Assembly (NCBI RefSeq): GCF_037975245.1
Contig: NC_092575.1
Coordinates: 28,109,341 to 28,173,340 of the forward strand
From: Apostichopus japonicus
Lineage: Eukaryota > Echinodermata > Holothuroidea > Aspidochirotida > Stichopodidae
Length of the DNA: 64,000 nt
Direction of reading: 5' to 3'
The notes under the pieces are model-generated. The model saw only the letters and a list, made by a program, of their open reading frames with translations. It did not search any database and was not told the DNA's origin. Every line of letters starts with the position of its first letter. The first letter of the stretch is position 1. The translations under genes were made by a program, and so were the position numbers. This document shows positions 6,097-62,007 of this stretch, piece after piece.

Positions 6097-7011
6097 ATAT
6101 AAGAAATAATAAGACAGGTTTGATGAAAATTACATGTATGTGCTGGCAAAACAAATCATGCACTGTTTGTCTGATAAATTCCTAAATCATTTCAACCATA
6201 AATACAAGGTTTTTGTTTCTTTCTACATGAGTACTGTATCTACATCTTTATATTCTTTATTTTGTTGTCATATTTGCACAGAGGAAAACCCTTATGTCTT
6301 TGGAATAACCAAACCTCCTGTAACCTGCAAAATAGTTATTATGTTATAATCACAGAAACTTAAAGAAAATAGCAGCGTGTCCATTTCACATGAGAAATGT
6401 GTTTAAGAAAACTTAACAAAAGAAGCAAACCCCACAACATCCTTAAGAAGCTAACCCCACAACATCTTTATATTGTAGATATCATGCTGTGAAGAACGAA
6501 TATATGAGGAAACATTCCAGAAATGACATCTTTCAAACTAACTCATACTATTCTGTACTGTTGTAAGGGGGCTCTTCATTATAACCACCCCTGTCACATT
6601 GGGTATTGGTAAGTGATGAGCTTGCCTCTTCTTTAGAGATCACAAGAATATTACGGTGAAATCTTTGGCATCAATTCCTACTTTGTCAAGCTTCTAATAG
6701 ATTTGAGCTCCTCTACACCTTCCATTACATTTAATATACATCTATGTAGACACATATATTATATGACGCACAGGAATATGACTGAACAACCTTCAGAAGA
6801 GTTTCATGTTTGGTCGAAAAGAAAGGATCACAGACTGTGGGACATGAAGTCCCCATCAAGGAATGGATGAAACAAATTACCACAGAAACTTGCTAATACT
6901 ACAATACGCTGGACAGACAATCTAATTTACCCTTACGATTATCCATGCAAAAGGCGATATGATACTATTTATTTTCATATCTACACAAAAACATTGATAA
7001 GATTAACTAAA
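6097..7011. other. Intergenic DNA, nothing recognised
   Basis: AT-rich sequence between the C19orf53 3' flank and the composite transposon. Short open frames at 6134-6349 show no family signal, and I see no RNA gene. Confidence 0.4.
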
Positions 7012-7060
7012 CAGGCGCGTATCCAGGGGAGGAGGCGTTGGGGGCGCGCCCCCCGGGTAA

Positions 7061-7200
7061 GGAAAAGAGGATAGAAAAAAAAAGAAGAAAAAAGGGGAAA
7101 GAGGGGGAAAAAAGAAAGGAGGAGAGGAAGGAAGGGAAAAGAAGAAAGAGAAAAAGGAGAAAAAGAGGGAGTAGAAGATAAACGCCAAGACCTCGGGAAG
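7061..7200. repeat. Polypurine (GA-rich) tract
   Basis: About 140 bp is nearly all purine on the plus strand. A related tract recurs at 36234-36400 in the second copy of the same element. It can form triplex or H-DNA in principle. It generates artificial proline-, serine- and phenylalanine-rich frames on the other strand. Confidence 0.8.
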
Positions 7201-7837
7201 AGAAAGAGGAACAGTCATAATTACAGCGCTGATCCCTATTATATACACAGGGTAGCCAGTGACAGATCAAGGATTACGGAGGGGACGTGCGCCTCACCCT
7301 ACCCCTTACATCGACAACTCCCATTTTTGACGTTCCATTTTCCTCTCTCACTAATGTATCTATATATATACTATATATGGTCTACCATAACGTGTGTGTG
7401 TGTATGGACGCCTTAAACAATTGTACAATTGTGCTATGGAACCAACTGTGGCTGGTCTTGAACTCGACCGAGTCGTCGGGGAACATGACGCATTTCGGGA
7501 AGGGGGCGACCGCCCCCCCCCCCGAGCAAATTTACTTTATGATATCGCTAGTAATTTCAAAATAGACAATGATTAGATGCAACTTACAAGGCATGGGAAG
7601 TGTCATTTCCAGTGATCTGGAAGGCATTTTCGGCCAAAATTTCTTGTACGCTTCACGCCAACTCATGGTGGCGTTACGCTTAGATAGTTTGCCTACAGGC
7701 TTCGCCCTCCCTTGGCAAATTACTCGCTACACGCCTGTTCGAATTTGTCAAGCAAAGAGCAGATATCACATCATATCAGTGAGCATGAAAATGCATGTCC
7801 CAGGATGAACAGCCTCAAAACTGTCCATGTGTGTAGT

Positions 7838-8314
7838 CAAAGGCGTAGGAGCCCAATTGGATTTGGGGGCTGTAACGACTTGCCCGAAAAATATAACCAA
7901 AATTTTCGCGCGCCTTGCGCGCGTTCAACATGTTAATGTCAATATCATATAAGCAAGCATCGGTCATTACATCACATGGCATCGTGTGCCGTACGGTCCG
8001 TGAAAGTTGCGCAGTATACCGCCGGATGCTAATGTAAACAACGAAATGTCTTATGTAGATGGAGAAAAAGCATGGAGGTCCAATTATGTCAAAACTCTCT
8101 TTTATATTAGTAATGGCGAATTCGTCGGCCAAGCTTAGAACTTTAATTACCAAGGAGATCATTTTTAAACTATTCATTTCCTTAAGCTACATCATTGCTA
8201 TTTATTTTTCTTTCAGTAGGTGCCTGAAAAATTCCCAGCATATTGCCCGAATTTTCAGGGGGGAATATTGGTTGGGGGGGGGGGGGGCTGCAGCCCCCGC
8301 CTCCTACGCCTATG
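7838..8314. mobile_element. Nested hAT-like MITE with 8-bp target duplication TGTGTAGT
   Basis: The element starts CAAAGGCGTAGGAGCC and ends GCCTCCTACGCCTATG. It is flanked by TGTGTAGT at 7830-7837 and at 8315-8322, the 8-bp duplication length typical of hAT insertions. A poly-G tract lies next to the right end. A related left end (CATAGGCGTAGGAGCCC) occurs at 44713, and an internally rearranged copy lies inside 36184-38382. Confidence 0.8.
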
Positions 8315-9382
8315 TGTGTAGTGTTCGGTTTCGAAATATCTGATATCGGAAATATCTGGTATTTTTCATTTCCTTCAACCAAGTTTTATAAAAGCCGTTA
8401 TAAGAGGTTTTAATATTTGTACACCAATAAATCAACTGAAAATTTCATGACCAACATTCTTCATCATACTTCCCTCTACTAGTGCAATTTTGACCTGTCT
8501 GTTAGGGCTTGAAGGAGGTTTTTCTATATTGGTTTTCCATAGATGAATTTTTTGCAACATTATGAATTGTTTTGAAGTGATTTTATTCACGAGAAATGTG
8601 AATTTTCAAATTCTGAACAAATAATGGGCTTAAAACCTTGAAAAGTGGGGTTTTCGGATATTGTGGGCCGTGACGTAGAATCACTTACAAAAGCAATGAA
8701 TGATCCACAGGACATACAATGAGGTTGAACATGATGTGTGACTGGTGACAATCTTCAAAAAGGTTATGGATGGAAACAAAAACTATTGGGAAATACTTGG
8801 TTCTCAGGCAAAAGTGTACATCTGGTTGGTCATTTTCAAGCCCGAGAAGTGCCATTTCCGGTGATCTGGGGGGTATCAAAACCAGAAATTTTCTTGTACG
8901 CTCCGCGCCAACTGATGGTGGCGCTCCGCTTAGATAGTAATTCGCGCCCCCGGGTTTGAAAATCCTGGATATGCCCCTGCTTAACATGTAAATTTTATTA
9001 CCGAATTTAGCTAGTTAAATTTAAAGATTCAAAAATCCATGTAAGAATATTTCTAATGGCTGTGGTACGTACTAAATGAATAAATTTCTTAGCAGAAAAC
9101 AAACAGCCATATGTTGATTCTTGGGAACGTGAAGATATTACTATGTGAGGTAGATGTAATTTCATAGTCTTTGGTTGCACCCTATACTCTAACTGCCAGT
9201 CATGCTTCGGCTCAGCCAACGATACGGTACTATATATGCGACCCGTATGAGATCAATGTGCATCATCACTTGCCATGAGCAAGCCAGTCCCTAAGTCGAC
9301 ACATTTTCTTTGGATGTACTTTCCCAGTGAGTAAGTTGTTCCCCTATAACTTAACTCTGTAGATCTGCTCTCCTTGGTGATT

Positions 9383-12300
9383 TTAAAGGCTACGTCTGTT
9401 TGAGTTTCTGTGAGATGTGGTCTGTAAGTAACCGAAAAAATATGGTTCTATAAACGATCATCTTAACGGATAATGAGTTAGAAGACTGACAATTATCGAA
9501 GGTAAACCTCATACAAGCACTTGTCACTGCTGGTTACTAGGAACCGATGAGAGGGGCTTCAGGTGGGAAATGCATTCTCGTGCCGGGTAGGAGATTTGGG
9601 GGAAATAAAGAATAAAATACTGACTCTGGACGCCATTGATGGTTACTGTCACGGCCATCTATAATTTATCATTGGCAGTTTTATGTAACGGTAGAATTTA
9701 AAGTTAGCTTCCTTACCTGAATTTGTTGTCCTTTAGTTTCTATCGGTAGTAGACATGAAGCTACTGTACCAAGTACCCCAATCACTACAAAAGCGATGAC
9801 TGCTCCTTTAACTGTATATGACGCCAATATCTGTTGTTAAAAATGTGATAAATAGTTATTAGCTTATTTCATCGTTTTTGAAATTCAAGTACAACATTAA
9901 AACTGATACAAATGGAGGCCTACACATATGCACTAGAACTTGCCTGTGAATGTTTATCATCCCAAATATGAACATTTTTTTTATTGTGCGACAATGCCAC
10001 AAACCAACTGATGATTGGTTTATGCCTAAATATGTACTTTAGCCTGCGTCTCAGAAACGTGCATTGTGTAAACCAGATGTTTAAAGGGGCATTCCGGAGA
10101 ACAAAATCGTCTGTCAAAATAGCTGTAACTAGTTTATACATTATTAAGATGAAAAAGTGTATTGGTTAGCATATTTCGCTGGAAATATATCACTTTTTTA
10201 TTCAGTTTATATCTGGCAACAGTACAGTATGGACGCGGTAAGTAGCCTATGCAAAAAAATGTACTTCTGACAAACCAACTTTGGTGATCGATATATCTTT
10301 ATGAACATATTAGTCGTTCTGAAAATTTTCTTGTGTTTCTGCAGCATTGATTCACTGACAAAGGCAGCATTTATCCACTGATATTTAGCCAAGGACAATT
10401 TATCCACTGACAGAGGAAGTTCTTTTTATCAAGAATAGATATTTAAATGAAACCTTCAGTTCAAACTTCATAGTACGTTGGTAACACGAGGGGGGGGGGG
10501 GCAGGCGCGGCGGAACGGAAAAATTATTGGGGGGGCTAATGTGTGGAAGCTATCTAAGCGGAGCGCCACCATCGGTTGGCGCGGAGCGTACAAGAAAATT
10601 TTGGGTTTTTTCAAACCCCCAGATGGCCGGAAACGACACTTCCCGAGTGTTTTATGCTGCGAATACCTAGCCCTAAAATATGGGTCTCAAGCCTGCAATT
10701 TCTCAGATTGCACGTAAAAGTCTGTAAAAACATTTTAATTTGTATGGTGTTTTAAGAGAGTAGCTATTACTCGTAGTGTACTCGCAAAGACGTTTTTGAG
10801 TGTAGTAAGGGCAGTGGCGGAGCTAGGGGTATTGGTCAGGGGGGGGCAAGGATGGTCTGTAGGGGCGCTTTCGACACTATCTAAGCGGAGCGCCACCACA
10901 GGTTGGCGCGGAGCGTACAGAAAATTTTTGAGTAAAGTTACTCCCTAGATTGCAGGAAATGACCCTTTCCGGGCCTTGCTAATTTGCAGATAAACGGAGA
11001 ATAAATAGGTGTCGTCGCCATTTTGTCGGAAAATTACACCAACAGAATATGACAAATGTCAATAGGTATATGAGAGCGCAATAAAATAGTCAATAATCGC
11101 GGTTGGGGTGACAATGTGGTCTATAGCCAGGGGACGGGCCGAGGGACCAGGGTCCCCCAGCAATTACTAAAATTATTACACCTATATAGTATACGTGTGC
11201 ATCGGACAGATCGACAAGTATGCATTGAAAAATGGGCAGATGCACGTTTCGGAGCCTTGGTAAATATTGGGGGGGCTTATCATGCATTTGCCCCCTCAAC
11301 TTTTTCATTGGGGGGGCTGAGCCCCCCCCCCCCAAGCCCCCCCGGTTCCGCCGCCACTGGGGGGGGGGCGGGTGGCACTCGTCAGTTGTGTATCATAGTC
11401 AAAGTAATAGACCATCTACTGCGATTCATTTCCTGGACATGTGCAGGATTTATCTGACAACAATGAACCACCTTAAAACGCTCATAGCCTATCTGGACTT
11501 AACAGAACCTGTTAGTGACGTGCGGAAAATGTCTAATTTTCTGTGGTAAGAGTATGGCCATTTGAACAACTGAAAGAAACGTGTGTTTTGTATACGTCAT
11601 AGTCTCTTACCTGAGCAAACACTGGGGCCACAATAGTTCCTAGTTTAGAAAAGGCGGTACCCATACCCACGGCGAGTCCTCTCACTGGTGTTGCGTAGAT
11701 CTACCAAGTGGGAGAAAATATAGAACAAATTCATGACTTAATTTTTTTAAGTTTCCATTAAATGTCGGTGCATAATGTGTAGAAATGCGTATACGGTGAA
11801 GAAAGTGAGAATCGCATACAGCTATCTGCAGCTGTAGAGAACTCGTTTATTCTGATGTTACTGGAGAGCATGGGCGGCGATCCTGGGGGGGGGGGGAAGG
11901 GGGGATATATCCCCCCATGAAAATGGGTGGAGGGGATGTAATACACCATATCCCCCCCCCCCACCAAATGCCAGGGATAAGAATATTTTCATGCCTACAT
12001 TTATGCATCATCGTGAATGTACGGCTCTTTTTTAGCTTCATTTCTCGCCTACCATAAACGCAGTGCGATCTTTTCAAATAAACCGTCTTTATAAAGCAAG
12101 AATAGTTGACTGTAGGCTTCATTGGCCCTATAACAACAAAATGTATTATTGCGCCCACGGTATTGATATAGTACATATATGCACCCTCATAGTATTCATA
12201 TAGGCCCTACAGAAGGCCTTCACACGTACATGTTCCCTCGAACAGCTGAGAATCTCATGTTGGTAATGCTTAATACACGTTTCACCTGGATGCCCTAGCA

Positions 12301-15300
12301 ATCGGTACCTAGGAATGTAACTATGTGTAATTGTATATTGCATGTGTATAGGCCTATAATAGCCTGCATGAGGCCATTTTCTTCATCGAATAATATAAAA
12401 GAGCTCTCGAACATTCTAACGTAGCGCCTGAAACAAGGTTGACAGTGGCAATTTTCCCAAAATAACACCCGAAATTAAAAAAAAAGTATTTTGGATCCTG
12501 ATTATGAGATATTTCGGACATGATATCCCTACTTTAAAGTTGGGTATATGCCGCTTGGAAACCTCGGGAAGTGCCGTTTCCGGCCATCTAGAGGGTTTGT
12601 AAATCCCAAAATTTTCTTGTACGCTTCGCGCCAACCAATGGTGGCGCTACGCTTAGATAGTCAACAAGGTCATATCCCCCCACTCGGAAATACGGATCGC
12701 CGCCCATGCTGGAGAGAGATCGCTGAGATAAATAACTTATATGAAATGACATTTAATAGCAGTTTTAGATACGTTTGTAGCTATAAACTTATTCGGGCAC
12801 TGAAATGCGCATGTTCAATTCGAACGATGAGCATAACACATATCTTGACCTACTTCTCCTTGTAAAAAGACATGAGAGATACGAAATAAACAAAATAACG
12901 TACGGTATTTCTCTAACTATAAAGTCTGACGTCATTGAAAGAGATAAAACCGTATGCATTATGGGAAGATCACAGTAATATATGTTACAACGTCCCGCTG
13001 TGGAGATGTATGATGACCTTTGACATTGTATATCATTACTAGTGCGTAGCTCTTACTTCCGGTGTGTAGGTGAATAGAGCCAGGAAACTGACTTGTGAGA
13101 AACACTTGCTGACGAAGAGAATTGACGTCGTGATTGATCTGAACAAGAAAAGACCACATGAATAAATTAAATTGGTAATTTCAACAATAAAGGTATATGG
13201 TATACTCACTAATTCGCTACAGCGCTTTCAACACAATAGAGTGTGGAAATGATTGTACATGGCAATTTATGTATCAACAACAAATACAAATATAGGGCCT
13301 ATACCACAATGTTTGTGACAAAACGAACATGCAAACAAACTAACTCTTCGGCATACCGGCAAATATGACAGTAATTCAAGTAACACGCAGTTTTTATTTC
13401 GGTCCATTGGTTACATTGATTTGCTATTTCGATACCTTGGTCTGTTAGACTTGATTTCAACTAAATGAATAACAAAGTCACATGCTCAACTTGGTGGCAT
13501 CGCTTGATGTTGCCAAACATGTTCAACGTATATATCAGTATAACATTGAAAAGTTACAAGACCGCTGATATGATGCAAATAATATCTGTCAACACACACA
13601 CACCTAAAAGTGTCATATGCTGCGACTGTTAAGACAGTGTGGACACATCATGTAGGCCTACTTCAAACTATATAATTGGAATCATGCTGTTGTCCCATTC
13701 AGATAGTATATAGAAGATAAAACAATATATAAAAATATCTTTATAATCATATAATCACTGGGTCATTGCTTGTTTCCATGGTCTTGAATCTGTCAGTGAA
13801 TTAGGGTGATGAAGATAAATTTCAGTTTGATATATTTTCGATTTGATTTGATTTGCTGTATAGACTCCCCAACTATAGCCCGCTATCATGGAAAAGTTTC
13901 TTCAGATTACGTAAACGAAATGCCTTGGTCGTAACATGACGTATTTTTACCAATTGTAGTTTGCAACGCCTGCCACATATTTTTTTCTTGTATGAGGGTC
14001 TTTGTCATGTGAACGCTGTAGACATGAACATATTTACACACAGTGTTTACACAAAGAGCCTAAGGTGTAAAGACGCTACACTGTTAAAAAAATTTCTGTA
14101 AATTAACAGAAAACGATTGGAAAAAAAGTTTCCAATCGTTTCCTGTTATTTTTACAGACATTCTGTAAAAAGTAATTAACTGGAAAATAATGTTTTCTTT
14201 TTACATAGTTTTCCAGTTAAAATTTTTACAAGAATAATCTGTTAAATAGAATAACATAAAAATTCTGTTTTATTTAGCATTTTTCTCATGTATATTTAAC
14301 TGAATTCTTCTGATAAAATTACAATTTATTCCTGTTTGTTTACAGACAGTTTTATTGTGTTTTACTACCAAATTTTGTCTTTTTACAAGTTTTCGATGTT
14401 AATTTACCAAATCGTCTGATAAAATTACAATTTTTGTCTGTTTTTTTACAGACGGTTTTACTTCTAAATTCTGTCTTTTTACAAGTTTTCGATGTTAATT
14501 TACCAAATTGTCTGATAAAATTACAATTTTTGTCTGTTTTTTACAGACGGTTTTACTTCTAAATTCTGTCTTTTTACAAGTTTTTGATGTTAATTTACCA
14601 AATCGTCTGATAAAATTACAATTTTTGTCTGTTTTTTTACAGACGGTTTTACTTCTAAATTCTGTCTTCTTACAAGTTTTCGATGTTAATTTACCAAATC
14701 GTCTGATAAAATTACAATTTTTGTCTGTTTTTTTACAGACGGTTTTACTCCTAAATTCTGTCTTTTTTACAGGATTTTGATGTTAATCGTTCAGTCAATT
14801 TGCTTAAATCTTCTGATAAAATTCAAATTTATGTTTTTTTTTACAGACGCTTTTAACGTGTTTGTCTACTAAATCTGTCCTTTAACAATTTTTTTATGTG
14901 AATTATTAATGGTTTATCAATTCCATAAAAAAGAAACATAAGTGTGAAAATTTGATATTGACAATTAAAATAAATTGATGGGTTTTATCCGTCTTAGTTT
15001 ACGGCAAGGTTTCTACAAAAAGTAAGTACATACTTAAGGAATACGCCAAAAATATACGGTAGAAGTACGTTGAAATGCTCATGTTTATTTTCACCCTTTA
15101 TTTACACAACTTCTTCATTCATCTTGGAGTGAGGTCTTCCCCAAAAACATGCACATACAAAGGTGCTTTTAACCTATCACTTTTCACCACTTTACTAAAA
15201 CTAAAAGCTTCTTAAGTAGATCCTAGAAACACAAAAACTCAATTTTAAAACAACAAGTAGAGAACTTAAACTTCAACACTGAAACAATAATTCTACTTTT

Positions 15301-18300
15301 CAAGATTTGAGAAAAGACTGGTGACTGATATCACAAACTTCAGGCCAAGGCAATTACAAACCAGTTACAAAAGTCTGTATAGGAACAATAAGAGATACAG
15401 GTTTTGCAACTGTTCTCAAGAGGTGGTAAGATCACCTTACACCAAAAGCAACACATTGAAAGCTACTTCATTTGTTGCTATCTTTGGTTAGGGCCAATTA
15501 AGTTGCCCAAAAAAACCACAAACTATGTGACCCTTAATTTTACAAACTGACTGCAATTATAAACTTTCTAAATGGCATATACTGCAAAAAGCTCTTCACC
15601 GAATATTAAGCTAAAGTAAGATTTTTCATACAATAATATCATTGTAATGTATTTATAATCATATACTATATTATGTCAGCCTCCTCACAGTATTAAAAAT
15701 TCTCCATAGAGTCGGTCAAGGCATGTGGCTTATGACCAACTATTCAACAACAACTATATGATCATCTTCTGTATATCACTTTCAAACATTATTTTTCAAC
15801 CCATGAAGTGGAAGACCCCAGTTTGGGACGACAAACACCCTGAAACTATCCCAAAGTGGTCATTTCAAATGGAATACAATCATTAGCCAAAACCTTATTA
15901 CATGGTAGGCTTAAGGGTTAATTGACGTTATAAGCTTCAAACTTTCTAATTATTATTACACAACTTTCAAACATTTTCATATAAAGCTGAGCCATGATAT
16001 CATGAACATGCAATCATTTATGCAATGCAAATGTCAAAATGGAAACTAAAAACACAGAACTTAGTAAATCAACAAGGAAGTAACTTAAAGTCCAAAACTG
16101 AAACAGTAAACCTCTTTTTCAATGTTGAAAAAATTGGTGCATGCCAATATAAACTTCAGGCCCTGTCAATTCCAAACCAGATGTCTATGAATACCAAGAC
16201 TAAAATATAAATTCCAGCCAGAAATGGATATTCTCACAAGTACATTAATAATTATTTGATGGAGTATTTCACTGGGGTAGGGGATGTAGAAAGGGAAAAC
16301 TTGGTCTTAATGCATAGGCAGTGCAATTCCTATAGACCCTACACTACACACAGTAATAGACAAGCATACGTTAGTATAGTTTTGTGGCACTACACACTGT
16401 AATCACACTTTTTTTTAAATGAAGTAGTTTAAATAATATCACATAGTATAAACTCACCACTGAAAACGAAAAAACGTTAGTATAGTTTTGTGGCACTACA
16501 CACTGTAATCACACTTTTTTTTAAATGAAGTAGTTTAAATAATATCACATAGTATAAACTCACCACTGAAAACGAAAAATGGCAAACATTTCACCATTTA
16601 AGGAATGGTTCAATGTGCATGAGCACTGGTATTAAAATGAACCCATTGTCCTTGTAAACATTTATACTTATTAGAAAGTTTCCTTTTGTGGCTACTGCCT
16701 TAATGCATGCTATGATCAGGAAATCCACTGGATGAAATTTTTCTTCAATTGAATAGCACTCTAGGAAGAGGATAGAAGGGGGCACAAATTTGCAGTCAAT
16801 TCTTTGGGCAATTTGAAATGTAAGGTCATAGAAGGTGTCACATTTACTATCAAAAGTGAACTTTTAGCAGGCAGGTGTAACAATATAGTGTTAGTAATAG
16901 AACTTCATATTAATCAATACTTTATATGTCTGAATAACATGCCAACATGAATGAATAGAATTCCATAAACAAACTCTACAGTCTCATCTCCTGCTTGCTT
17001 CAAGTCCACCTTAGGTAGAAAATGTGATGCAAAGCCCATGAAAATGCATAGATTTCAGTTCTCTTTAATTATCTAAAACAAAATTTCATCTGAAACCATT
17101 CTGCTTTAGAGGCACAGAATATGGAGATTGGGGTGCAGATTATTTCATGTCTGTGTACTCAGTACTGATCGTAGTACATAAAAACATCATCCACCTGAAC
17201 GTTCCTTACATATAAGCTGAATGTCTATATACATGAAGGAAACACTAAGAGTGGCTAAAGGCGACATTGAGGTTCCAGCCAGAAGTAACCATCTTAACTT
17301 GATTTTAAATGAGTTGAATAAAAACAAAAAAACAAACGTTTCTAAATGGTTCCTGTAGTAACTAAACTCGAAATAAGTCCACTGATCACCATACTACACT
17401 GTTTGATTTTTTTATTACTTTGTTGACTCATCCTTGATATGTCCCAAAAGAGACAACACTTTGGGATTTATGGCTGAGGATTTCCTACTTTTTCCTGATG
17501 TGGGTGGGTTGATTCCAACAAAGCACCTGCCAAAAAAAAAAAAGAGTTGATTTTTGTTACTTTTGGTGGGAATTAATATTTTCATCATTGACCTTGACAC
17601 TTGACCAGTAGAAAACCATGTCTTTAAAACATGATACTTCTGAAAATTTGTTGCACATTAATTATTCACTTCACTGTTTCAGGTATAAATTAAATGGCTT
17701 CTCACACTGCTTTCATATTAGTTTGTATTTATAATTATGAAAGTCATAATGATTGTGGTCAAAACATTTTCAAGCATATTTCCTAATTCACAATTCTTTT
17801 ATAACTTTTTTTTAGAGAACAGTTGTTGTTTATAACAGTCAATTCCACAAGAAGACTGTCCATGAAATCAATTTGGAATGTACAGTTTGAAGGATTAAAG
17901 CCTGGGTCCCATCTATACAATTCTACAAGCAGTAAATTTTAAACAAAGTCTGACGATGAAACACAAGAATCAACTTCAAAATCGACAAAATGCAGGTGGA
18001 TTGTAGTTGAAAGGAAATAGGACACTGATCTTCTTGGAGCAACGATCAGGATCGACTTTTTCAACTGTGCATTTTGTTGCAAGTTTAATCCCAATGTTGA
18101 TGGGACTAAGGCTCTACAAATAATGTCACTGCATAAATATTCTACGATCTTCAAATTAATGATGCTGTTACTATTTAACACTAAACACCTACTGCAGCAG
18201 TTCATCTAAACTGAGGTAAATAATTGTTAAGTTAGACTATGACCAAATTTCAAGTAACAGTACCTTCAATGGTATTCTAAGTTGGGATCATGATCTTCTC

Positions 18301-20088
18301 TCTAGACTGACAAATTATGACTTACTTGTGTAACTACTCAACTGAATTTTACACTGGTTCAAGTCTTTCCCAAGTGTTGGTAGAAAACACACTATACAAG
18401 GAAAACACTACCATGAGTTACAACTCCAATCCCAGCTATAACCACTACTGTACAAATATTCATTCATATTCCATTAACACTTACCTCTGGATGAACTCCA
18501 ATGTCACACAGCTGTCTGCAGGATACTGAATGTTTAAAACATAGTATGTGGCAAAGAGGTAGGCAAGGGCACTCTGAAAATCAGCCATAAGATGATTGAC
18601 AACGACCTTGTCAACTGCGATCATATACTTCCGCCCGGCCAACAGTGTGGTTCCTGTGATATCAATATTCAAACAAAGATAAAAATGTCAATCCGAGTTT
18701 CACTTTGTCATTATTTTCCGAAATTGAATTTTTTTTAGTGCTGTTACGGACTAAGAATATGTTTCCATTCTTTTACTGAAGGATTATCATGTAACATTCT
18801 CAAGAGTAGTAACTTTTTTAGGGACCTTAAAAAAGGTATGTCCATTAAACACTTAACCTAGAAACTGCAATGACAAGATCAAAAGTGAATTGCAAGCAGA
18901 ACCCACTGATTTTTCACTGAATGATGCAAAGCCTAAATCAGTGGACAACCCCTCCCCCACATTGGAAGAAAAAAATTCTCTGCCCTGCCTCTGTAAGAAT
19001 AGGTATCACACCAAACAAGATCATTGGTCATCTATCTATTGCCTTGCATCTTGGATTCTATGCAAACCTTATGCATAACTTGAAAGGCCAAATGCAATTA
19101 CCCCATTCTGACTACAAACCCTCTATACTAATTCATAAATATGTACACGTCATTCTTTTAATCTCAAAACAATGTTTCTGTTACATTTTTACCTTTACTA
19201 CTGGACATTAACATTCTGAACCAACCTGAATGAGAGATTTGAAGGATTTAGCTGATGCTTCCAAGTAAGAGTTGGATGATTGCTTATGCCATTACACCAA
19301 ACTGAGTCTAAATTACTGCCGCCAGACTAATCCCTAAATTTTGACAATGGTTTGTGGCATATTTAGAGCCACTTCCCATCATAGCCAGAAGATGTAACTT
19401 CAATAAATGAATCTTCTCTTTCATCTAAATATCACATTATACTAAATCTTGGCAAACTGCTTCTCAGTATCTAACAAGTATCTACCACACTGAAAGCTAG
19501 TACATTTATTCCCATGTCACATTTAGAACACTTTTGATAAGTATATACCTCTATTGCACAATTTGGAAAGGAAGACTTTGCATTTGAATTAAGAAACAGG
19601 AATTCCTACTTTAGTCTGAGCCTAGCAAGGGATCAATGGTAGGAAAAGACAGGCTTGGTAAAACAATCAGTAGTATTCAAAAAAAAATGTTGAGCAGGAT
19701 CCAAGGGATACTTTAAATCTGATGTGCTTAAATATTGTTGATGAAAATAACAAAGCTCTGTAAACAGAAACACCCGAAATGTACATTCAAGAAGCTTACC
19801 CGAAACAACAATACAGGGTGATGGAGAGTTCAAGCCAGAAACAGCCTCCTGATCACTGCTTGTCTCCTGGGAAAGTAAAATATGTGCAACTTGTATTTTA
19901 AAACCTGAAACTTATACAAAGTTGTCTGGTGGCAGAAATTGGATAACAATTTGATCTGGGCCCCATTCTACAAAGAGTAACCCACAATCTTAGATTTGAT
20001 TCATAGTCTGTGTTTAACTTTAAATCACACTCAAGACAAAGAAAAACTCTGTATGGAACAGGGCCCTAGTTAGGATATTATATAGCAG

Positions 20089-20152
<64 letters not shown>

Positions 20153-23100
20153 CAGTTAATTGTCACCTTAGTGTAGGTCAAAGTTCACTTCAGTAGCCAT
20201 CATGATGGCAGTCTACATGACTACTCATTACTAAATAATGTTTAATTATTGGCCATATACAGCACACATTTTGACCAAGTCAGCTGTATAAACACACTTA
20301 AAAGAACACATGTGGCATTACACCTCGAGTACACACATTGCTTTTGGCATGATCTAAGAACATATTCTGCACCTGTGGCATAGTCAGGTTGTTGTCATGG
20401 GGCTGATTTGCAACTCTATGTAAGGTGTCCTGAAAGGCTGATCAACATAACACTACAGAGACTATAACAATGTGACACTGAAATTTTACTTAAAATCCCC
20501 ACTTTGCCATCCCTTGCTTAAAATGAGGCTTTCAACTAATCTATGGTTAGTTCAACTTTACCAGGGTGAAATTGCACTTTTTACTGTAGTCTTCAACCTT
20601 ATCTTGCTATAATATTTGCCAAGTAATTTACCAGCATGACAACCTTTGCAAATAAATGAAATAGAAAAAAAATATCAGTTCACTTTATAGAAATACTCAC
20701 CTTTGATAGGTACAACAGGGTATCTACTTTCTCCCCAAAGTAGCAAGTAAGTAGCCAGATTAATCCAGGCATCTCAGGAGTAAGATCGTTTGTTTCTGCT
20801 CTGGCAACTTCTATGGCATCAAAAACATCTTTTAAAGCTGGCTTTTTGGTAGCAACTTTCCTCAAATAGTGCATAACAGACTGACCTTTGGTATCTAAAG
20901 ATTTAGAAAGAGTAGGCATCAGTTCAATACCAACCAATTCATGAAAGTGGCTCATCATACCAATGCTTTCCAGGAGAAATGGGTATTCTTCTATTATCCC
21001 TATGAGGGTTATGCTGTTTGTATTGATCATTGTGCGGATAGTGAAATACAACAGTTTCATGTTCATCTGAATGATGTCTTCATCCCACTTATCTTCATTT
21101 TCATACATTTCCTTTAGTTCAATGGTTCTCCTTTTTTGAGATGTTTCGTCTTCCCTCTCTGGCAACCCTTTTGGTTGCCAGTTCTGACAACCATAAGAGT
21201 CTCGTTTTTTTGCTCGCTTAGGCTTCTGTTCTGAAGACTCATCATCTGATGTGCTGGTCAATGAAGACGTTCCTGGCAGATATGTTTCAGTCCGCCTCAG
21301 GTTGTTGATTCTGTTTTCCATTTGCTTAAGTACAGATTCAAAGCCATCTCCAATAACTTCACCGCCTATGTCATCTCTAAAGCTTGCTGGGTAAGAATCA
21401 ACAATTGTTTTTGAAATAATGGCAAGATTCTTACGGCCCGGATTGCGATTTTTCTTCATGATGTCATCACATATTATTCGTATCATTTCCCTTCTGTCTC
21501 TTGGTGATGGCCTTGTACATTTCTTTAATGAATCACTTAAGTTCTTAGGCATTTTGTTCCACTGGACTGTAAAAGTTTCCACCCAGTGCTTCTTTAGTGA
21601 GGTAGGAGTTCCTGGACTTGAGCTGGATGACTCTGAAGAAGCAACTGATCCGACTAGTTGAAAATCTTCCATTCCCAACTCCAGTTGGTGATTTAGTTCA
21701 CTTGGGGTAGTATCTGGCGAAAAAAGGAAAAACTGAACATCAGGGCCTTGTTTCACAAAGAGTTATGCTCAGTCAAGTTTGATATGTAGAACATAAGTTA
21801 GCAATAAATCAAACTAAGACTGAGGGTAACTCTTCATGAAATGGGGCGAGGACTACCTCTAAAACTAACAGAAATGTTTTCAATGAATAAAAACATTAAA
21901 TTTCCAAGAAATATGTAAGAACTAGTGTAGTCTCTTGTTGCCACATGTGTACATAACCAGTCTTACAATGATATGAAAGCATTAGCTACAAGCCAACAAA
22001 CTTGCATTTCCTCATTTCTCTAAACAACTGCAATTGAAATTGATACAGAATACAAGTAGTGTACAGTATGCCATTGGCACAACGAAAACACTGTCTATCT
22101 GAAAACAAGGATGAGAATGTGTGGACATAAAAGCACTGAAATGTTTATTAATTACAAATTTAGAGTCTTGTACATATTTACACTGCAAAGTTTCTGTTAA
22201 GCAACTGTCCATGAATGATTACCTCAACTATAAAGCAGATAAACTTGCAAGATTACATGTAGGCTGTTCAAGCATGATCTAGTCACAAACTCTTCATTTC
22301 AGAACTGTAATGACTTTTGGTAGTGATTTTTTTGTCCTTTTGGTAAACATGATAGTTTCCAGGTCACATATTGCCTCCTCACTCTGCAAGTACTGTGCTG
22401 TGCACACTAAATTGGCCTACTAAAAGAAATGTACAAAATACTGGGGTCTGGACGATACAGTACCTTCAACCCTTGTAGACCAAGCTTTCAAAAGCTTTCT
22501 CCGCTGAATTGGTTTCAAATTTTGGAGATCCTCTTCTGTAACACACTTTAAATCTGCAACACTTTCAACTCCTGCTCTTATGAGCAGTTCTAGCACCTTC
22601 TTAATCTTGTAGGTGGGCAGTAGTGGAAAGACATCACTCACAGCACTCTCAATTGGACCAAGAAGAACAGTATCATCTGAAGATGTATCTGACAGTTCCA
22701 TTTTGAATCAACACAAACCACTCTGCCAACAGCAAGAAACATATAGCTGACTGATTTTGTTAATGTGAACGTCTGTCACTATTGAGTTGACACCTCAAAC
22801 TGACAAATACTAACTATACTATTTTTACACAATGGCTCAAGCAATAAATAATGACCACTGCATTGACCATTCCTTTACTATAGCTCAGATTACTTTGTTT
22901 TCCTGCACTATCAAGAATGTAGATCTTTGTTCAAGGAAAGATAACTACTCAGTACATTATAAAGCCTGAATAAGTATGTATTAAATAGCAAATGCAGTCC
23001 CAAAATTTGAATTTGGTGGACTATGATAGGCCAAGTGAGGAGTGAGTGTTCACTCACATGAAAACAGAACTAAATGAATAAATTGTTGAATTGAGGCTAG

Positions 23101-26100
23101 GTGCAACATTTCATCCAAATGCTCTAAAATTTCTCAGAGAAGCACCAGCATTGATATTTGATAGGTTTATATGATGTTTGAAGCATTGTTGGGGAAACTG
23201 CATATATGCCTTACATGCAATAAACATACACAACTTAGAACGATATATGCTGAATGTACGGTATTGGACCCTGTGTAAACATGTGACATATTGAACACAT
23301 GAGGCAAGGTAAATGCATGCACATACATCCATACCATGGCCAAGTACCATCATCATTGTTGAGAAAGTCATGAGTGGAAACAATTATGCTTCAGTGGAAG
23401 CAGGAGTCTTCCTTGAACTGGATAAGCTGACAATGGATAATAGTCACAAAGTTCTGAAACCTTCAGACAGTCTATATCATTTGATGGTTGCAGCAAGTAC
23501 ACACCTAGTTCCTCAAGAAGGGTAGCATTATGCAGTTTAACAACAAGAAATGCATCATTGTTACATAAAAGAGTCAACAGAATACAGCCAAATTGCAAGA
23601 CTGAATCTGTACATTTGCATGCCACAAACAAACCTGCACTGTACTGAGTACCATAGACCTTTAATTTGTTACTCACTGTGGCTGAATCAACCTGTAACTC
23701 TTTTGACTGCAGGGAAGCCCTAATTTCAGGACTAAAAATCTCAGGATTTAGTTGCTCACCTTTTTCAATGAAATTTTTTTCAGGAAACATACTCCCTGCA
23801 CTATTATATGCCTGCAGCTGCTGATGTCTTTCTGACAGCGTATGTGTTACATTAACAAAGTTATGGCAATTCCTAGCACACCGTTTGAAGTAAGAGTGTT
23901 TGCTTTCAAACCTCAGTGTCCACACTCTGATTAAAGGGCCAAACTTAACTGTCAACTCTGGATAATGACAAAGAAAGTGATGTTTTGGTCTAAGCTTCAC
24001 ATCAGGAAAGATTTGTTTTCTTTCCTCATGGTACTCTTCTATTAACACCTTCAGATAAACAATTTCATCCCATGATATTTGAGGAGCACAAACAAGCTGA
24101 ACAATCTCTCTTAAACGCAGAAATTGTTTCCAAACATTGTCAGATTTATCCAAAATTTGCTGGCCCACCAAAATTGGGAGAAGTTTAAGCAAACACCAGT
24201 TCTCAACTGCATTTCCACCAAGTCTGCTTTTATTTGAATTTATCTGAGCAGGCTTGTTATTGATGTCACTACCAGTGAACTTAAACAGTTCTAACTTTCT
24301 GTTTAAGTCTTGGTACGTAAACCAATGTCTCTGATTAACCCAGTAATCGATATAGAGTTTCAAATCATAATCCACTACCTCTTCAAAAAGGTCATGGCCC
24401 AAGCAAGGTGGCAGGCCAGGATTACAGACATGGAAGTAATTTAAATTATTGAAGAGGGAGTTAAATTTAATACCCTCAAAGCTATCTTCACCAGACTGTT
24501 GGAGATGTTCTACACATCTGTCATATTCGGTGGGACTTCTGCACTTTCCCAGAGCATATGGCTCACCTGACTGAAATTCAGCTGAACTCAGTAAGCAATA
24601 CCTACAATAATGTTTAGATGAAAAGCTTTCAACAAATCCGCCAATAGTGTGTGAGCCTAAATTATCTCCTAGTATGCATGCCAATGAACCTTTCCGAATT
24701 TGCCCACCTTTGACCTGTACACCAGTTTCTTCTAGTAATTTCAAGTCTCTTAATAGCCTTTTAAATACTTTTTCTTGTCCATACTTCTTGAAATCAACCT
24801 CTCTACAAAGAAGTGCAAGTTGCAATGACTCTACCTGGGACCTATACTGAGGAGTAATGTTTCCCAGAGTGAAATACACAGCCAATATTTTATGTTTCTT
24901 TTTGGCAGATCCAAGTGGATTCACTACTTCAAAGGCATCTTGGAATAAAATAACCGACAATGCATTTTCCTCACTTCCAAAAAGTGTATTTTCTTTGAAA
25001 ATTTTCCCATCTGTTATATCTGTAAACACTGGTAGCTGCATGTTGTGGGCTCTCCTGTCTGATTTTATTGGAATCAAGTCATTATCAATGAGAACTTTAA
25101 TTGTCTGCAAGATGGGAACATAATGACAGTAATGCATTTTTCCTGAAATATCCCTCCCAAGGGGAACAGCTTCTGGGGAAACAAAATTCAGTGACTTAAA
25201 GTACTCTTTTCTACTATGTTTTGAGCGCAGTTCTCCCTTCTTACTGTCCAAAGCAACATCCCACTCATTTCCCAAGTTAAGGTCATCTAATAATGAATGA
25301 ATACGGTCATTACAAATGTTTTCGGCCCTTAATTTTGCTGTAAGCCTAACTTTAAGAGATTCTAGGCAAATGTCATGTATGTTTCTTAGTTCCTCTACAA
25401 TAATTTGTACGGTTGATTCTGGGACTAATTGTTTCCCTTGCAGCTTAAGTAGAAATAATGCAAAACTTTTCAAAAATTCCCCTTTTGACTGATCAGAATT
25501 ACTCTCAACTTCTATGACATTGTCATGTTCAGTTTCCCCAAATTCTATATCCAAACTTTCTTCTGCAGTAGTGGGCTTATTAGCATTGCCAGTTTCTACA
25601 TCATAATTATTTGCTGTTTCTGAAATTACAGCATCAAATCTGAAACTTTTGTGAGCATTTTTCACACGTTTTGCACACCAATTTCTGTGGCAACGAGACA
25701 AATGAACACAAAATGTTGCCTTTTTGTGGTACCTTCTCTTGCATGAAACATACGGGCATTCAACTGTCTGACCATTATTCATGTGACTTTTGAGATGACT
25801 TAAAAATGCATGCAAATCAGAGCATTCTTTCTTACAGTATGCAATAGCACACTTCAGTGGTACATTAACAGAATGAAATCTGTTTGACTGCTCTACATGT
25901 CTCTGGTTACGATGCTTCCTTGTTATATGAACTTTCAGTGCTGTAAAAGTTGAAAATATGTATCTGCATCCTTGAAAACAGCACCGAAATTGAGAATTGG
26001 CTTGATTTCTATGGCGCCGTCCATGAGCCACATACTCACTCACTGAACGTGTTGTTACCTTGCAAATGTTGCAAAGTCCAACAAACATTTTTAGTCTCAC

Positions 26101-29100
26101 GACGTACAGAACTATGAGAATACGAGTAGGAAAACCCTGCCAATTTGGAAAAGTTTGAATAACCTACTTATAAACCCACACCAATTTCATTTGCACTAAC
26201 TTCGGTTGTTAAAGCTACAGTGAATTTACACAATTTTTATATGTTTGAAGTTGAACATGTACTGAGTACAGCTACAGTACAAGATATAGGAAAGCTCTTG
26301 CCTACTTGCTTCTTTTTGTACACATGATTTTGTCTAGATTCATAATCAATGCAAATGGTTGTGTCAAAATGATTGACAGACTGTGGTACTGGTAGTGTGG
26401 ACAGGCTCAGTCCAACTCATACTGGTTCTCACACAGTAAAACTACTGTATCATTACTGTTAGGCCCTAGCTTTGTTGGGTATCATAGGTTTTCAAAGCTA
26501 ATAAGTAATGTTGGCTTAAACTTAATCAACAATTCGGTTAAAAGTAGCCTATTAATATTAATAGCCTAGGCTACAGCCGCACAGGCAATAGCAAAAACCT
26601 AAGTTTTTAAATTGTATATGGGCCAAGCCTATTATTTTATTTCATCAATATCGCTCCGGACTAAGACCACCGTTAGCCACTGATGCCTAACGTTATGCTA
26701 GGCCCTTCGCTATTAGGCCTAGCCTATAACTATAAAGCTCAGTTATCGCATCCGTTATACAAAAACATTTAACAGATTTTCCGAAACGGCAAGAAAAAAC
26801 CTTCTAAGAATTTGTTATTGATGAATAGTCAATGTTTCTACCAACTTATTTGCTAACAAAACTTGAATGAACTTCCACTACACCCACCTCAGTCGAATAT
26901 TGCAGAATTCTCCTGCGTCATCAGTGAAAAGGCAGCTGGTGTTGTGTACTGCATGCTGGACGCAAGTAGTAGTAGTGTGTACGTACGTACGTGGTCGGAG
27001 TTCGGTGCGCTGTTGTATTGTACGTATAACTGAAAAAGTTTCTTGTGCACTGATACGTCAGGCCGTGGACTGTTATTTTGGCGGGAAACGTTAATATGCA
27101 TATGTTACACTCGTGAACCCAGGTGGAAACCGTGACCTTAGGTCACCGAGCCATTGCGAAACCACTGGACTGCATTAGGTGTGCCATACGCGCTGTACGT
27201 TGTGTTTCACGCCAATGCAACCTTTAAACAACATCAATCTGTCTCACCCACATGCTCGCTGTATCACGAAATCGATCGGCATTTACTCAAATTTAAATTA
27301 TTTGAAATAAAAATGCCCAAATTAAATAGAATGTTTTCGTCTTTTTAGTGCGCATTCAATGCCAATTGAAGACAGTTAATAATGATCACAATTTTTTTAA
27401 ACCCCAGAGCTTCCGTGCATGGGCATCGCCCAAAGGTCCCGAAAACACATTGACTAACCTAGGGCCCGAAGCGGGTCCCTGGACCACACACCCGAGATGA
27501 GCGCATCCCATATATTGTTCAGTCAGATTGTGCTTGAAGAAACATACGATGAATTGGTCTATAAAAGGACCCTATAGTGTTGCTAATTGAAATACTAAAT
27601 ATTTGTTTTTCCGCAAAAATGAAAAGTTTCTGTTTAAAAACATTTTTTTGTCGTAGTAAATACAAATTGATGGTAAAAAAAACAGTGCGATCATGTTATT
27701 GCAATAAAACAGATATAAGTTGTAAAATAACAGGATTTTTCAACTGTTACTTTAATTTACAGTTACTTCTGTAAAAATATTAATGATTGCAGTCAAATTT
27801 TGTTAAAAAAATAGAAAATAATTGTTTTCTAAATAAACAGAAAATATAGGTTATATTACATTTTGTTTTTGTAGCAATACAAACTGTTTGTAAAAATACA
27901 GTAATTTTTGGTTAATGGGAAAAAACCGGAAATTTATGTTAAAAAAGTCTGTAAACTGACAGATATTTTTAACAGTGTATATACAGGCTAATTGTGGAGC
28001 CTGAGGTCGATTTATGACCGTGGCAGGTCGATTACGTAATCACAAAACTTTTCTAGCTATAGCGTGCTATAATTGGAGCCAATAAAGCAGATAACATATC
28101 AGTCGTGGTTATATTTCTAGACATTTGTATAGTTTTGTACAAATAATTTTAATATTTCAGGCTCATCAATTCCTGTGCGTGAATATTGACGAACTACTTT
28201 AGCACCATGACGGCCCTCACCGGCAACAAATTGCCCTAACATATCACACCGTCACATCTCAAAGAACATGCTAAATATGCCTATCAAATGTCCAACGATT
28301 ACTAATTTATTAAATATCATTTTCAATGCTTGTTTCTCTTATGATATTAATTACTACAAGACTCCATGATTCGGATCACAAACAAGGAAGAAAAAATGAC
28401 TGAAACGGGTTTATAAAAATCCAATAACTTAAACGAATTGCTGCATGGGCAATAAAAACTTACTGTGAACTGAAGCAAAACAGCAACAATGAAAAGCATA
28501 AAGAAAACGTCATCCCAGCTAAGAATAGGATCGCTCTCCTCCCTATTACATCGATAAGTACCATGTTAATTAAAACAGCTGTAATAGGAAAGAAAAAATG
28601 TCAGATATTTTGATGCAGTTATTTGTCTGATAGATTTTGGTATTTTCAGTTCTGGAGCGGTGAATATAACAATCATTAAAACTTTTATATGTTTAATGAC
28701 AGAAAAGAGAACATATTTACAGTAGTTATAAAGAAAATAGCAAGTTACTCCATTTTAGGCGGTCATGGAATCATCAGTGACAAACTTAAAACATATTGGT
28801 AATTGTTATTGGGCAGCAGACCGTTATAAATGTTTTGTTTAAAGCACTACGGTATAATGCTATGGTGAATTAAGTACGGTATATGACAGATATCCCACAT
28901 GATTTGCACATTTGTCAATCAATATTGATAGATATACACTCATCGAGGTTTTGGGCCACAACCAGTATTGATAGAGATACACACGACATATACACACGGC
29001 ATACATTAATCTTGGAGTGACTCGAACTCATTAGGTCCCGAGTTCGAGTCACTTCAAGATTAATGTATGTCATCCAGTTACAGAGTTGTTGACAATTGAC

Positions 29101-43052: not shown

Positions 43053-44086
43053 AAGGTACATGTACAGAGTAGTCTTACTTTTCAACTTCTGATACTTGTA
43101 GATACAAAGATAGTCCAGAAATGTCTTTGATACAACTGTATAGCTAGTAAATGTTTAAGTTAGCCTAATAAGAGAAGGCGAGAGCTATCCGACGATTGCC
43201 ATCTGATGCAAATTTCTCAAGTGTTTTCTCAACTGAAATAGTATCTGCGTAAACGGGTTCTTAACTACATGTTAAAAAACTGACAAGATCGGATCCTATA
43301 GTCTTTTTCGGCGGGTAGAGTGTTGAATGAAACTATCGTGCTACATACTGGTTACGCCCTGATCATATGATATCATTATCAGCAGATTTTGTTTCCTGTT
43401 TAAATTCTTTTACATGTTCTTTTACATAATATATCAGAAAGACAAACATAGTGCTCTTTTACAAGTTTTCCAGTAGGATGATTCTTGTTTATTGTCCAAT
43501 GTCTGGACTTTAATACCTTTGACGAACTTAACTGATGGACAATATAAACTTTCATGTTTTGTAATACAGCCAGATATGCAGTGGCCTAAAAACAAATATC
43601 GTTATCGCAGTGTATTAGCAGTGTAATAATTATTTATAGGAAGTGCGTATCACGTACGATTGCTAGCTTAGCTTCATAACATGCTGTTCGTGCAACAACT
43701 TAGGACGACTCATTGAACGAACGTTGTCGACGTTGTGGTGCATTCAGTTCGTGACATTCCATAGAGTGCGGTTAGGTAGGCAATATGTATTTTATTACGC
43801 AGTGGCCAACTGTAGGCTTGTAATTGGCTATAAGCTAAATTTAGCTAATTGCATCTGCCAAACTAAGTAAGTAGTTGAATCAGTAGGCGTGAATGTTACT
43901 ACGATCATGGGCGTCAATCCAGGGGGGGGGGGGACGGGGGGACACGTCCCCCCCCACATTTCGATGGATGGGGGAAACAATATCAAATGTCCCCCCCCCC
44001 CACACATTTGGAAAAAGAGTAGTGTCGTGGCTCTATTTGGTTACGGCTTACACATCTTAGGATTCATATCCTCGAATATCACTCAA

Positions 44087-44466
44087 TGTTGCTGAATGGA
44101 GAATTCCACCCAGATATCGTGAGTTGGTACCCTGAGCTCTCCGACAATCTTAAGCTTAGTCTGCCTTTATTTCGAGGCCAGTTCCATTCGTCGTCGGTTG
44201 AAGGGTATAGACAAATATTCAAGTTGATGAATCCAGTGGTACGGGCTATGTTTGGTGAAGTCGAAGCTCTCTTGCGGTTGCTCCTCGTCTCCTCCGCCAG
44301 TTCGACGGAAGCCGAGAGATCTTTTAGTGCTTTGAGGCGTTTGAAGACAAGGCTACGGAGCACCATGACTCAACAGAGGCTGAACCATGTGATCGTGTTC
44401 CATATTCACCGCGCAGGGACGTCGTTAGAGGGGGTGTGGGTGTGTCTCACCCCCAAGCCATGGTAA
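44087..44466 (+). pseudogene. hAT transposase C-terminal (dimerisation) fragment
   Basis: The frame contains WYPELSDNLKLSLPLF, SSASSTEAERSFSALRRLKT and LRSTMTQQRLNHVIVFHIH. These are the conserved SSAxxERSFSALRRLKTxLR and RLNxLxxxHIH blocks of the hAT C-terminal region, as in ZMYM1- and THAP12-like hAT proteins. Everything N-terminal (BED or zinc finger, catalytic core) is missing, and the frame ends inside a nested element that starts at about 44414. It is therefore a dead remnant of an autonomous copy. It identifies the superfamily of the surrounding element independently of the 8-bp duplication. Confidence 0.88.
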
Positions 44467-46118: not shown

Positions 46119-46526
46119 CAATGGGCCTATATCTGAGGCCCTGGGGTCAGTGGCGTCGTGCCCATTGGGGCCCGGGGGCACAGCCCCCCCACCAAAAAAA
46201 ATCAAAGGTGTCATAAAATTTTGTCATAATTTAAAAAAAAGTGTTTTCGAAATCGAAAAGTAGACTAAATATTCAATTGCTCTTTGATGGTCGTTGCGGA
46301 TTTTCCACACACATCAAAGACCACATATCGGGAGTAGTAATGCCATTACCTTTGAATATGTTTGTCCTAAGCTCGCGTTTGATACAGTCTCAATTAACCT
46401 GGAAAATAATCACTTCGTTATGGCGCGTTTTACCTTAGGTTTCGCTACTTTCACTTTTTCTGCCCATGTTTTCAAACGGCATGGCTTTTTCTTCACCCAG
46501 TCACCACTTCTCACGGGCATGGGCGG

Positions 46527-47177
46527 CAAGGGCGGCGGAACCGGGGGGCACAGGGGGCACGTGCCCCACTTTTCCCCAGGTTAAAAATGTGCCCATTTTC
46601 TACATAAAAATTGAGGTGTCTCAAGTTAGCAAGAGGCCAGGGAACCAGAATGAACACTCGGGAAGGGCTTTTTTCCGGCCATCTGAGGGGTTTGTAAAAC
46701 CAAAAATTTTCTACTACGCTCTGCGCCAACCGATGGTGGCGCTCCGCTCAGATAGTCGTGCATACAACTTTGCAACTCCTCGCTACGCCTCTGACTCTTA
46801 GTGAATTTCTGTGGTCAAACTCAAAGCTATTTCGAATGAAACAAATTTGTTAAGATATTAACAAGAAATAAACTCTAATTCGGAAGATTCCTACATTAGC
46901 AATTAGCATGATTTCGCCTCATTTTGTCTCAAAAGAAAACTTGTTCCTTGTTTCCCAATTTTCACCTTGGATATTGCAGTGCTAGTATGCATATTTTCCT
47001 TTAGAGGGGGGGGGGGGGGGAAGGTTGATGGAGTGATGTGTGTACACAAATAAGATAATGCAATAAGAGTAGTAAAGGGTACTAAATATAAGGCTGCATC
47101 AGTCCAATAGAATTGCTGCAAAGTGCCCTTTGATGTCGGTGCCCCCCCCCAGATTAAAAGTGCTTCCGCCGCCCTTG
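46527..47177. mobile_element. 651-bp nested hAT-like MITE, target duplication ATGGGCGG
   Basis: Ends are CAAGGGCGGCGGAA and TTCCGCCGCCCTTG. ATGGGCGG occurs at 46519-46526 and 47178-47185. The target CATGGGCGG is itself the terminus motif of another family (compare 11869), so one MITE landed in the end of another. A hairpin module is at 46708-46756. Confidence 0.92.
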
Positions 47178-47708
47178 ATGGGCGGTGATCATGGATCAGC
47201 CAACACGAAAATGTTTCGATATCTTAAATGTTGGGCGCTTCTGGGAGACGAGGAATTGGTAAACTTAGGAGTAAATGGCGATCACTTCCTTCGAGAATAT
47301 TTCCGAAAATAAAAAATTGCGGGAAATTTTTATCAATTTTAGGGGTGTTGCTTTCTGCCATAATGCACGGGAAGTGCCGTTTCCTGCAATCTGAGGGGTC
47401 TGCCAGAAGAAAAATTTTCTTGTACGCTGCGCGCCAACCGATGGTGGCGCTCCGCTTAGATAGTACTTACGGCCGGAATACTCGAATCGATTCCGTCCCC
47501 CCCACGTTTCAAATCGGATTGACGCCCCTGACTACGATTACAATCGAGTTAACGGAGCTGACGAGTATTCAAGATCAAAAGAGCACTGACAAAATACCAT
47601 GCTAAAAAAACGACAGTTTAAAAAAAAAAAATCGACACTGAAAGGGCGGGGGGAGCGGTCGCTCCCCCTGCTCCCCCTGCTCCCCCTGGCTACGTCCCTG
47701 CCTACAGT

Positions 47709-55436: not shown

Positions 55437-62007
<6,571 letters not shown>

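Follow-up and report, generated by a model that had tools for sequence, protein, structure and literature searches.

A 13.9-kb two-gene transposon, probably of the EnSpm/CACTA group, within an intron of Apostichopus japonicus

What occupies nearly the whole of one intron in a 64,000-nt stretch of the Apostichopus japonicus genome (GCF_037975245.1, NC_092575.1; the entire stretch is here called the window)? A reading made from the sequence alone had proposed a complete 13.9-kb transposon of the CACTA/EnSpm type carrying two intact genes, and this proposal was followed up mainly within the species' own genome assembly (671.6 Mb, 35 contigs). The results support a complete, recently inserted and structurally autonomous transposon that probably belongs to the EnSpm/CACTA group (CMC/CMCT clade) and encodes a protein related to tnp2-type transposases; we put the probability of this reading at roughly 0.87.

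The element spans 14079-27977 (13,899 bp; minus strand, its genes running right to left). It is bounded by a perfect inverted repeat of only 12 bp, with CACTGTTAAAAA at 14079-14090 on the plus strand and its partner, which reads TTTTTAACAGTG on the plus strand, at 27966-27977 on the minus strand; each occurs once in the 64 kb. Beyond these 12 bp the two arms have motifs in common without any long alignment. The dinucleotide TA stands directly outside both ends (14077-14078 and 27978-27979). Taken between the flanking exon-like pieces (28463-13139, exon edges set by eye), the host intron measures 15,325 bp, of which the transposon makes up 90.7%; both the completeness of the element and its share of the intron, put at over 90% in the sequence-only reading, were borne out. 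The transposase gene and a second gene (gene 2) share their orientation with the exon-like pieces of the host gene around them. The sequence-only reading had taken this for intron 11 of an SVOP-like gene, a name that stays putative: of eight exon-like pieces searched against Pfam, one gave a weak major-facilitator match (E 0.021) and the other seven gave none at E <= 1.

The proposal had been staked on the existence of further copies with the same ends, and such copies were found. End patterns were searched across the whole genome with up to three mismatches permitted, and the resulting counts are lower bounds. A 31-mer from the left end occurred at at least 16 places (11 exact) and a 40-mer from the right end at at least 14 (12 exact), while the reversed control patterns occurred at none. 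Both ends were present at at least 13 places: in ten of these each end is exact, and in the other three one of the ends has a single mismatch. All 13 paired copies carry CACTGTTAAAAA at each end. At the transposase-side ends, the only ends read, of two copies each from the related families at 62% and 52% identity, this 12-mer again follows a TA. Left ends at C15:15354397 and C15:15383696 belong to another family and were rejected as members of this one. Two paired copies on contig C17 (C17a and C17b; 11084979-11098666 and 11433570-11447240), 350 kb apart, agree in every base of the 40 bp of flank read to the left and to the right; this pair is either a segmental duplication or an assembly duplicate and was counted as one insertion.

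The flanks of these copies reveal the footprint of insertion. With C17b omitted as a copy of C17a, and with an old deleted copy (C16:1079373) and an unpaired right end (C16:15887817) also left out of the count, the same two bases flank the element on either side in all 12 independent insertions (TA in ten, CA in one, TG in one), and in none of the 12 does the match extend to 3 bp. The CA and TG cases show true duplication of 2 bp, as opposed to mere targeting of TA. An empty site is supplied by a repeat of about 340 bp with inverted ends, inside which the transposon lies (window 13854-14078 and 27980-28092) and which occurs elsewhere in the genome. Of 928 candidate places for the joined flanks, 40 were scored: in 39 the match crosses the junction at 83-88% identity, and the remaining one is the left flank of the window element itself. 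In three unoccupied repeats that were fetched, the junction reads GC-TATGCAG, and in the window it reads GC-TA...TA-TATACAG.

Repeated motifs crowd the regions immediately inside the two ends. In the left subterminal region (14079-14900, 822 bp) CTGTWA/TWACAG occurs 14 times against 1.0 expected under a Markov model, and 7 times against 0.34 when a tandem array is left out; in the right region (27560-27977, 418 bp) the same motifs occur 6 times against 0.65 expected. None of 500 simulations reached either the full left count or the right count, and there was no excess in the middle of the element (1 against 1.5 expected) or in the left host flank (0 against 0.43). Since the motif had been selected post hoc, by inspection, an unbiased test of 8-mer sharing was added. 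The terminal 280 bp on the left and 378 bp on the right have 50 8-mers in common, compared with at most 20 between the left end and 14 other AT-rich stretches and at most 23 between the right end and 20 such stretches. Tandem-repeat reading placed 4.5 copies of a 96-bp unit at 14359-14787 in the left subterminal region and a perfect 106-bp tandem duplication at 16368-16579. The 106-bp unit is single in the C10, C14, C21 and C3 copies, and the second C8 copy aligns across the duplication unbroken.

Is the element intact, and has it moved recently? The transposase open reading frame (23368-26100, minus strand) runs uninterrupted for 910 codons from a GTG, or 906 amino acids from an ATG at 26088, and gene 2 retains its frame through four GT..AG introns. 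Nothing obvious is broken in the window copy, as the sequence-only reading had stated; its further suggestion that this is unusual did not hold for this genome. Within the element's own family, seven of eight near-identical transposase loci are stop-free, two of them with in-frame deletions in the transposase (42 nt in C16, 45 nt in C2). The six stop-free loci that were compared, which include C17a and C17b as one duplicated insertion, differ from the window by 6 (C17a), 6 (C17b), 8 (C5), 14 (C8), 6 (C16) and 8 (C2) coding changes per ~2,700 bases (0.2-0.5%). The eighth locus, C13, carries frame-shifting indels and appeared in a first protein-level scan at 91% identity with 12 stops. Old decay was ruled out for C13, whose nucleotide identity is 98.9%; because small indels shift its frame, its codon counts were left unused. 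A second two-gene family (L023-L027; on C9, C15, C12 and twice on C17), 61-62% identical in protein to the window transposase, has five open copies; over 5.7 kb, four of them match the fifth at 99.84-99.90% identity. It gives better evidence of recent movement than the family of the window element does. Stop-free copies are therefore ordinary in this genome, and intactness is not exceptional here.

Deleted copies on C3, C10 and C21 have one common internal deletion (element positions 6521 to 12355), which takes out the transposase and exons 1-2 of gene 2. Since this single junction recurs at three sites with distinct duplications (TA, CA and TG), the simplest reading is that the deleted form was presumably mobilised in trans. 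Coding DNA is several-fold less diverged than flanking non-coding DNA when the C5, C8 and C2 copies are compared with window 21871-27600 (C5: 0.29% vs 1.98%); the 12.7% obtained for non-coding DNA of C16 was disregarded, since the C16 flank in part has no match to the element. Purifying selection was rejected as the cause of the low coding divergence, as synonymous changes are also few. Neither selection nor neutrality fits this contrast simply, and gene conversion is possible. The element may be active at present.

To which transposases is the 906-aa protein related? The ATG is codon 5 of the reading frame, and an in-frame methionine lies at the same point in the 62% and 52% families. Weak Pfam matches indicate C2H2-type fingers at the N-terminus, and C-terminal to these lies a putative catalytic triad, D388-D479-E732 in the 910-aa numbering. 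The window protein was aligned with 12 others of the same genome that are 38-61% identical to it; these 13, from about seven families, were picked for diversity from 30 transposase loci (L015-L044), some of them partial or near-identical to each other. Nine residues are invariant in all 13 rows: D384, D475, C495, C498, H565, H703, H704, H708 and E728 (906-aa numbering). The first and second D are 91-92 residues apart, the second D and E 251-255, and the last H and E 20 (19 in one row). The same residues recur in the more distant L068 (32% identical), with 258 between the second D and E, and C(2)C and H(3-4)H lie between the second D and E in all 13 rows and in L068. Between families, the ratio of non-synonymous to synonymous substitution is ~0.13-0.19 in the four comparisons that were computable, with synonymous divergence saturated.

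This arrangement closely resembles that of RAG1. The mouse protein, in the excerpted descriptions consulted, has D600, D708 and E962 with zinc residues C727, C730, H937 and H942 (PMC4914335) and an active-site H795 (PMC7204232), from which the corresponding spacings are 108 (first to second D), 254 (second D to E) and 20 (H to E). The partner of H708 in the predicted zinc site may be either H703, which fits the RAG1 spacing, or H704, which fits the alignment with L074 described below. RAG1 was not among the Pfam families matched by the transposase family of the window. A PDB sequence search with the single transposase gave five weak matches (best E 0.37); the 13-row profile mostly found zinc-finger proteins, aligned to the N-terminal part (best E 2e-6), and neither a transposase nor RAG1 is among the 60 matches listed out of 63. 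Protein searches of viral contigs and genome contigs found no relatives. A degenerate pattern of a motif taken as conserved occurred at six loci in these contigs, and tblastn with both element proteins gave no E below 0.25.

A link to the tnp2-type transposases came from within the same genome. A scan of the assembly with Transposase_21 gave 46 matches at E <= 0.1, and the best of these (L074) scored 53.6 bits against a curated cut-off of 28.6; the same scan of 14 control genomes gave none. The profile of the 13-row alignment matched the 417-aa core of L074 with 24.1 bits (E 4.7e-10, one-sequence search), compared with 3.4 bits for the best of 200 shuffles. The alignment begins ahead of the first D and reaches the E, with both D, the two C, H565, H704, H708 and the E in register, and is the strongest evidence for a CACTA relationship. 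Weaker matches point the same way: Transposase_21 over the first-D region in L042 (E 5.3e-4) and L023 (E 0.0057), and DUF4218, which follows Transposase_21 in plant tnp2 proteins, in L044 (E 0.07) and L068 (E 0.032). Of the 46 matches in the genome scan, 15 score over the Transposase_21 cut-off and the other 31 under it; long open frames are common among them, so that this genome holds several further CACTA-type families.

The placement in EnSpm/CACTA is supported by the end structure, the 2-bp duplications, the catalytic motifs and the match of the family profile to L074, a protein of this genome whose place scores over the Transposase_21 cut-off. EnSpm elements are defined by CAC..GTG ends, with a 3-bp duplication in fungal members, in the relevant part of a study of rust fungi (PMC12730594), and animal CACTA-related elements with 2-bp duplications are described in sections of PMC1636069. 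The window element has short CAC..GTG inverted repeats, a duplication within the 2-3 bp of the group, subterminal repeats at both ends and homology to tnp2 by way of L074. Several observations weigh against the assignment or against a simple history of the insertion. The strict CACTA letters are absent, the ends being CACTG. The hidden Markov model search that the sequence-only reading had called for gave a divided answer: the family profile matches L074, yet the window protein itself has no Transposase_21 match at E <= 10, and its core alone has none. Transposase_21 matches only two of the 13 aligned members, in both cases short of the curated cut-off, and none of the 46 genome matches belongs to the window's family; the place of L042 is among the weaker of the 46 (E 0.027). 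At the empty site the window holds two bases (one TA) beyond what a bare 2-bp duplication predicts, best explained, on the simplest reading, by a short TA-run difference at the site. Within the own family, the transposase differences are mostly amino-acid changing (5 synonymous vs 37 not, summed over five comparisons), so that no purifying selection is visible there.

Some of these observations would also suit a separate lineage of the CMCT clade that works in the same way but lies beside EnSpm rather than inside it. One such lineage is ESTA, an EnSpm-like element of rust fungi, which in the available account has the TA duplication and the C(2)C and H(3-4)H between the second D and E (PMC12730594); it is described from fungi, and our comparison is with that description only. 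The TA duplication, the lack of a direct Transposase_21 match and the RAG1-like residue spacing favour such a lineage. We nevertheless consider it improbable, given that the CAC..GTG ends are those specified for EnSpm in the cited part of PMC12730594, that 2-bp duplications already feature in what PMC1636069 relates of animal CACTA-related elements, and that the profile matches a protein above the Transposase_21 cut-off.

The target duplications separate the element from two other groups. Transib and RAG have a D-D-E core with a C2-H2 zinc site and a nearly identical spacing from the second D to E, but they make 5-bp target duplications, and Chapaev elements make 4-bp duplications; the window element makes 2 bp. 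Membership in EnSpm/CACTA remains our preferred reading.

What, then, is gene 2? It comprises five exons over 17415-22701 on the minus strand, at 22464-22701, 20701-21713, 19800-19866, 18485-18653 and 17415-17526 (the last with the stop), and encodes 532 aa. Pfam gave weak matches only, the best being a SAM-like N-terminus in exon 1 (E 0.016, below cut-off). Exon 2, conserved in genome matches, contains KPKRAKKR, which by eye resembles a nuclear localisation signal; exon 2 from two families gave no Pfam match, and gene 2 gave none in a PDB sequence search. Fish proteins annotated 'SAMD3-like' are presumably similar to gene 2, a name that no search supported.

The distribution of gene 2 in the genome argues that it belongs to the element. 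Merging of pieces reduced 60 transposase rows to 49 places (11 further pieces) and 113 rows matching the exon 2 protein to 70 places. Of the 49 transposase places, 43 are followed 1.6-8.4 kb downstream by gene 2 in the same orientation, against a chance expectation of 0.0013 per place for gene 2 within 25 kb; the six others are four diverged loci (32-33%) and two partial matches. The pairing holds in families down to 39% transposase identity. The five exons have their counterparts, in unchanged order, in five pieces of the 62% family, and between that family and the window the proportion of sites differing in exon 2 is 0.29 for amino-acid-changing and 0.75 for silent sites. From this co-occurrence, exon order and excess of silent change, gene 2 is most likely a maintained, core part of the element lineage. 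That it is instead a captured or host gene carried by chance, outside the transposition machinery, appears very improbable in the face of the common order and strand, the ordered exon matches and the constraint on protein sequence. This is so even though Pfam found no known DNA-binding or catalytic domain beyond the weak SAM-like match, though 27 of the 70 gene 2 places have no transposase upstream among the 50 of 398 transposase candidates scored, and though the C3, C10 and C21 derivatives moved without exons 1-2, which supply in trans would explain.

Instead of two genes, alternative splicing of a single transcript could give rise to both proteins, as it does in maize Spm. Both lie on the same strand, with 666 bp from the transposase stop to the start codon of gene 2 downstream, and alternative splicing occurs in Spm and SmTRC1 according to passages of PMC1636069; gene 2, for its part, has its own ATG and a closed reading frame. 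We regard a single transcript as a serious possibility, at somewhat less than even odds, and speak of two genes here.

Maize En/Spm offers a close parallel. It too has two proteins and short inverted ends beginning CACT, together with subterminal repeats and a tnp2-type core; its ends read CACTA and its duplication is 3 bp, whereas the window element has CACTG and 2 bp. Spm requires both TNPA and TNPD, as summarised in part of PMC1636069. Gene 2 is likened to TNPA by its putative role, not by sequence. By this analogy, the gene 2 protein would most likely be a partner in the role of TNPA, acting on the subterminal repeats; the AT-rich subterminal motifs and the SAM-like N-terminus, along with the need of Spm for TNPA, make a role in binding or bridging the ends the likeliest. 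A more specific version would have an obligate SAM-like second subunit bind the subterminal repeats, or bridge them through SAM self-assembly, and guide the D-D-E transposase, as either an animal counterpart of TNPA or an independently arisen RAG2-like cofactor; this version is tentative and on balance doubtful.

Among animal elements the nearest comparison is SmTRC1 and the other TRC elements. As far as the consulted sections of PMC1636069 describe them, these have a Transposase_21-type transposase, terminal inverted repeats and 2-bp flanking repeats (present in 7 of 14 SmTRC1 copies), and SmTRC1 also resembles the window element in its internal tandem repeats, deleted genomic copies and insertion into other repeats. 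The same sections give SmTRC1 a length of ~4.5 kb, 54-bp CCC ends and splice-derived second proteins, whereas the window element has 13.9 kb, 12-bp CACTG ends, C2H2 fingers at the transposase N-terminus and a SAM-like second gene of its own with five exons.

These observations can be assembled into a proposed mechanism. The 906-aa protein would recognise the CACTG ends and the subterminal CTGTAA-type motifs, its C2H2 fingers being the likely DNA binders. Cleavage would be performed by a RAG/Transib-type D-D-E RNase H core held by the C2-H2 zinc site, and insertion would take place at pyrimidine-purine dinucleotides, mostly TA, leaving the 2-bp duplication. The gene 2 protein would assist on the subterminal repeats in a TNPA-like role.

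The window contains other features besides the transposon. A reading frame at 44086-44466 may resemble the C-terminal dimerisation part of hAT transposases. Three more (12548-12865, 46466-46801 and 47228-47605) encode a common peptide like 'KIF(L/Y)YA(A/S/L)RQPMVALR(L/S)DS' and probably represent another dispersed repeat. A 16-bp minisatellite of ~39 copies lies at 58312-58950.

Animal CACTA-related elements with 2-bp duplications have been known since 2006, as SmTRC1 in the cited sections of PMC1636069 attests. A two-gene layout with a conserved SAM-like partner was not found in the literature searched, Repbase lying outside that search, and such families may already be deposited there. What the present locus adds is a set of several families with open frames and near-identical copies in one animal genome, in which two genes remain paired at 39-62% transposase identity. 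A two-protein animal CACTA system thereby becomes testable: for the protein that binds the ends, for the need for both proteins, and for the chance that other animal gene families are really components of transposons. The D-to-E spacing, close to that of RAG1, makes these transposases a useful comparison for the RAG/Transib/CACTA clade. If the SAM-like protein did prove to be an obligate subunit, SAM-like gene families in animal genomes would be transposon subunits.

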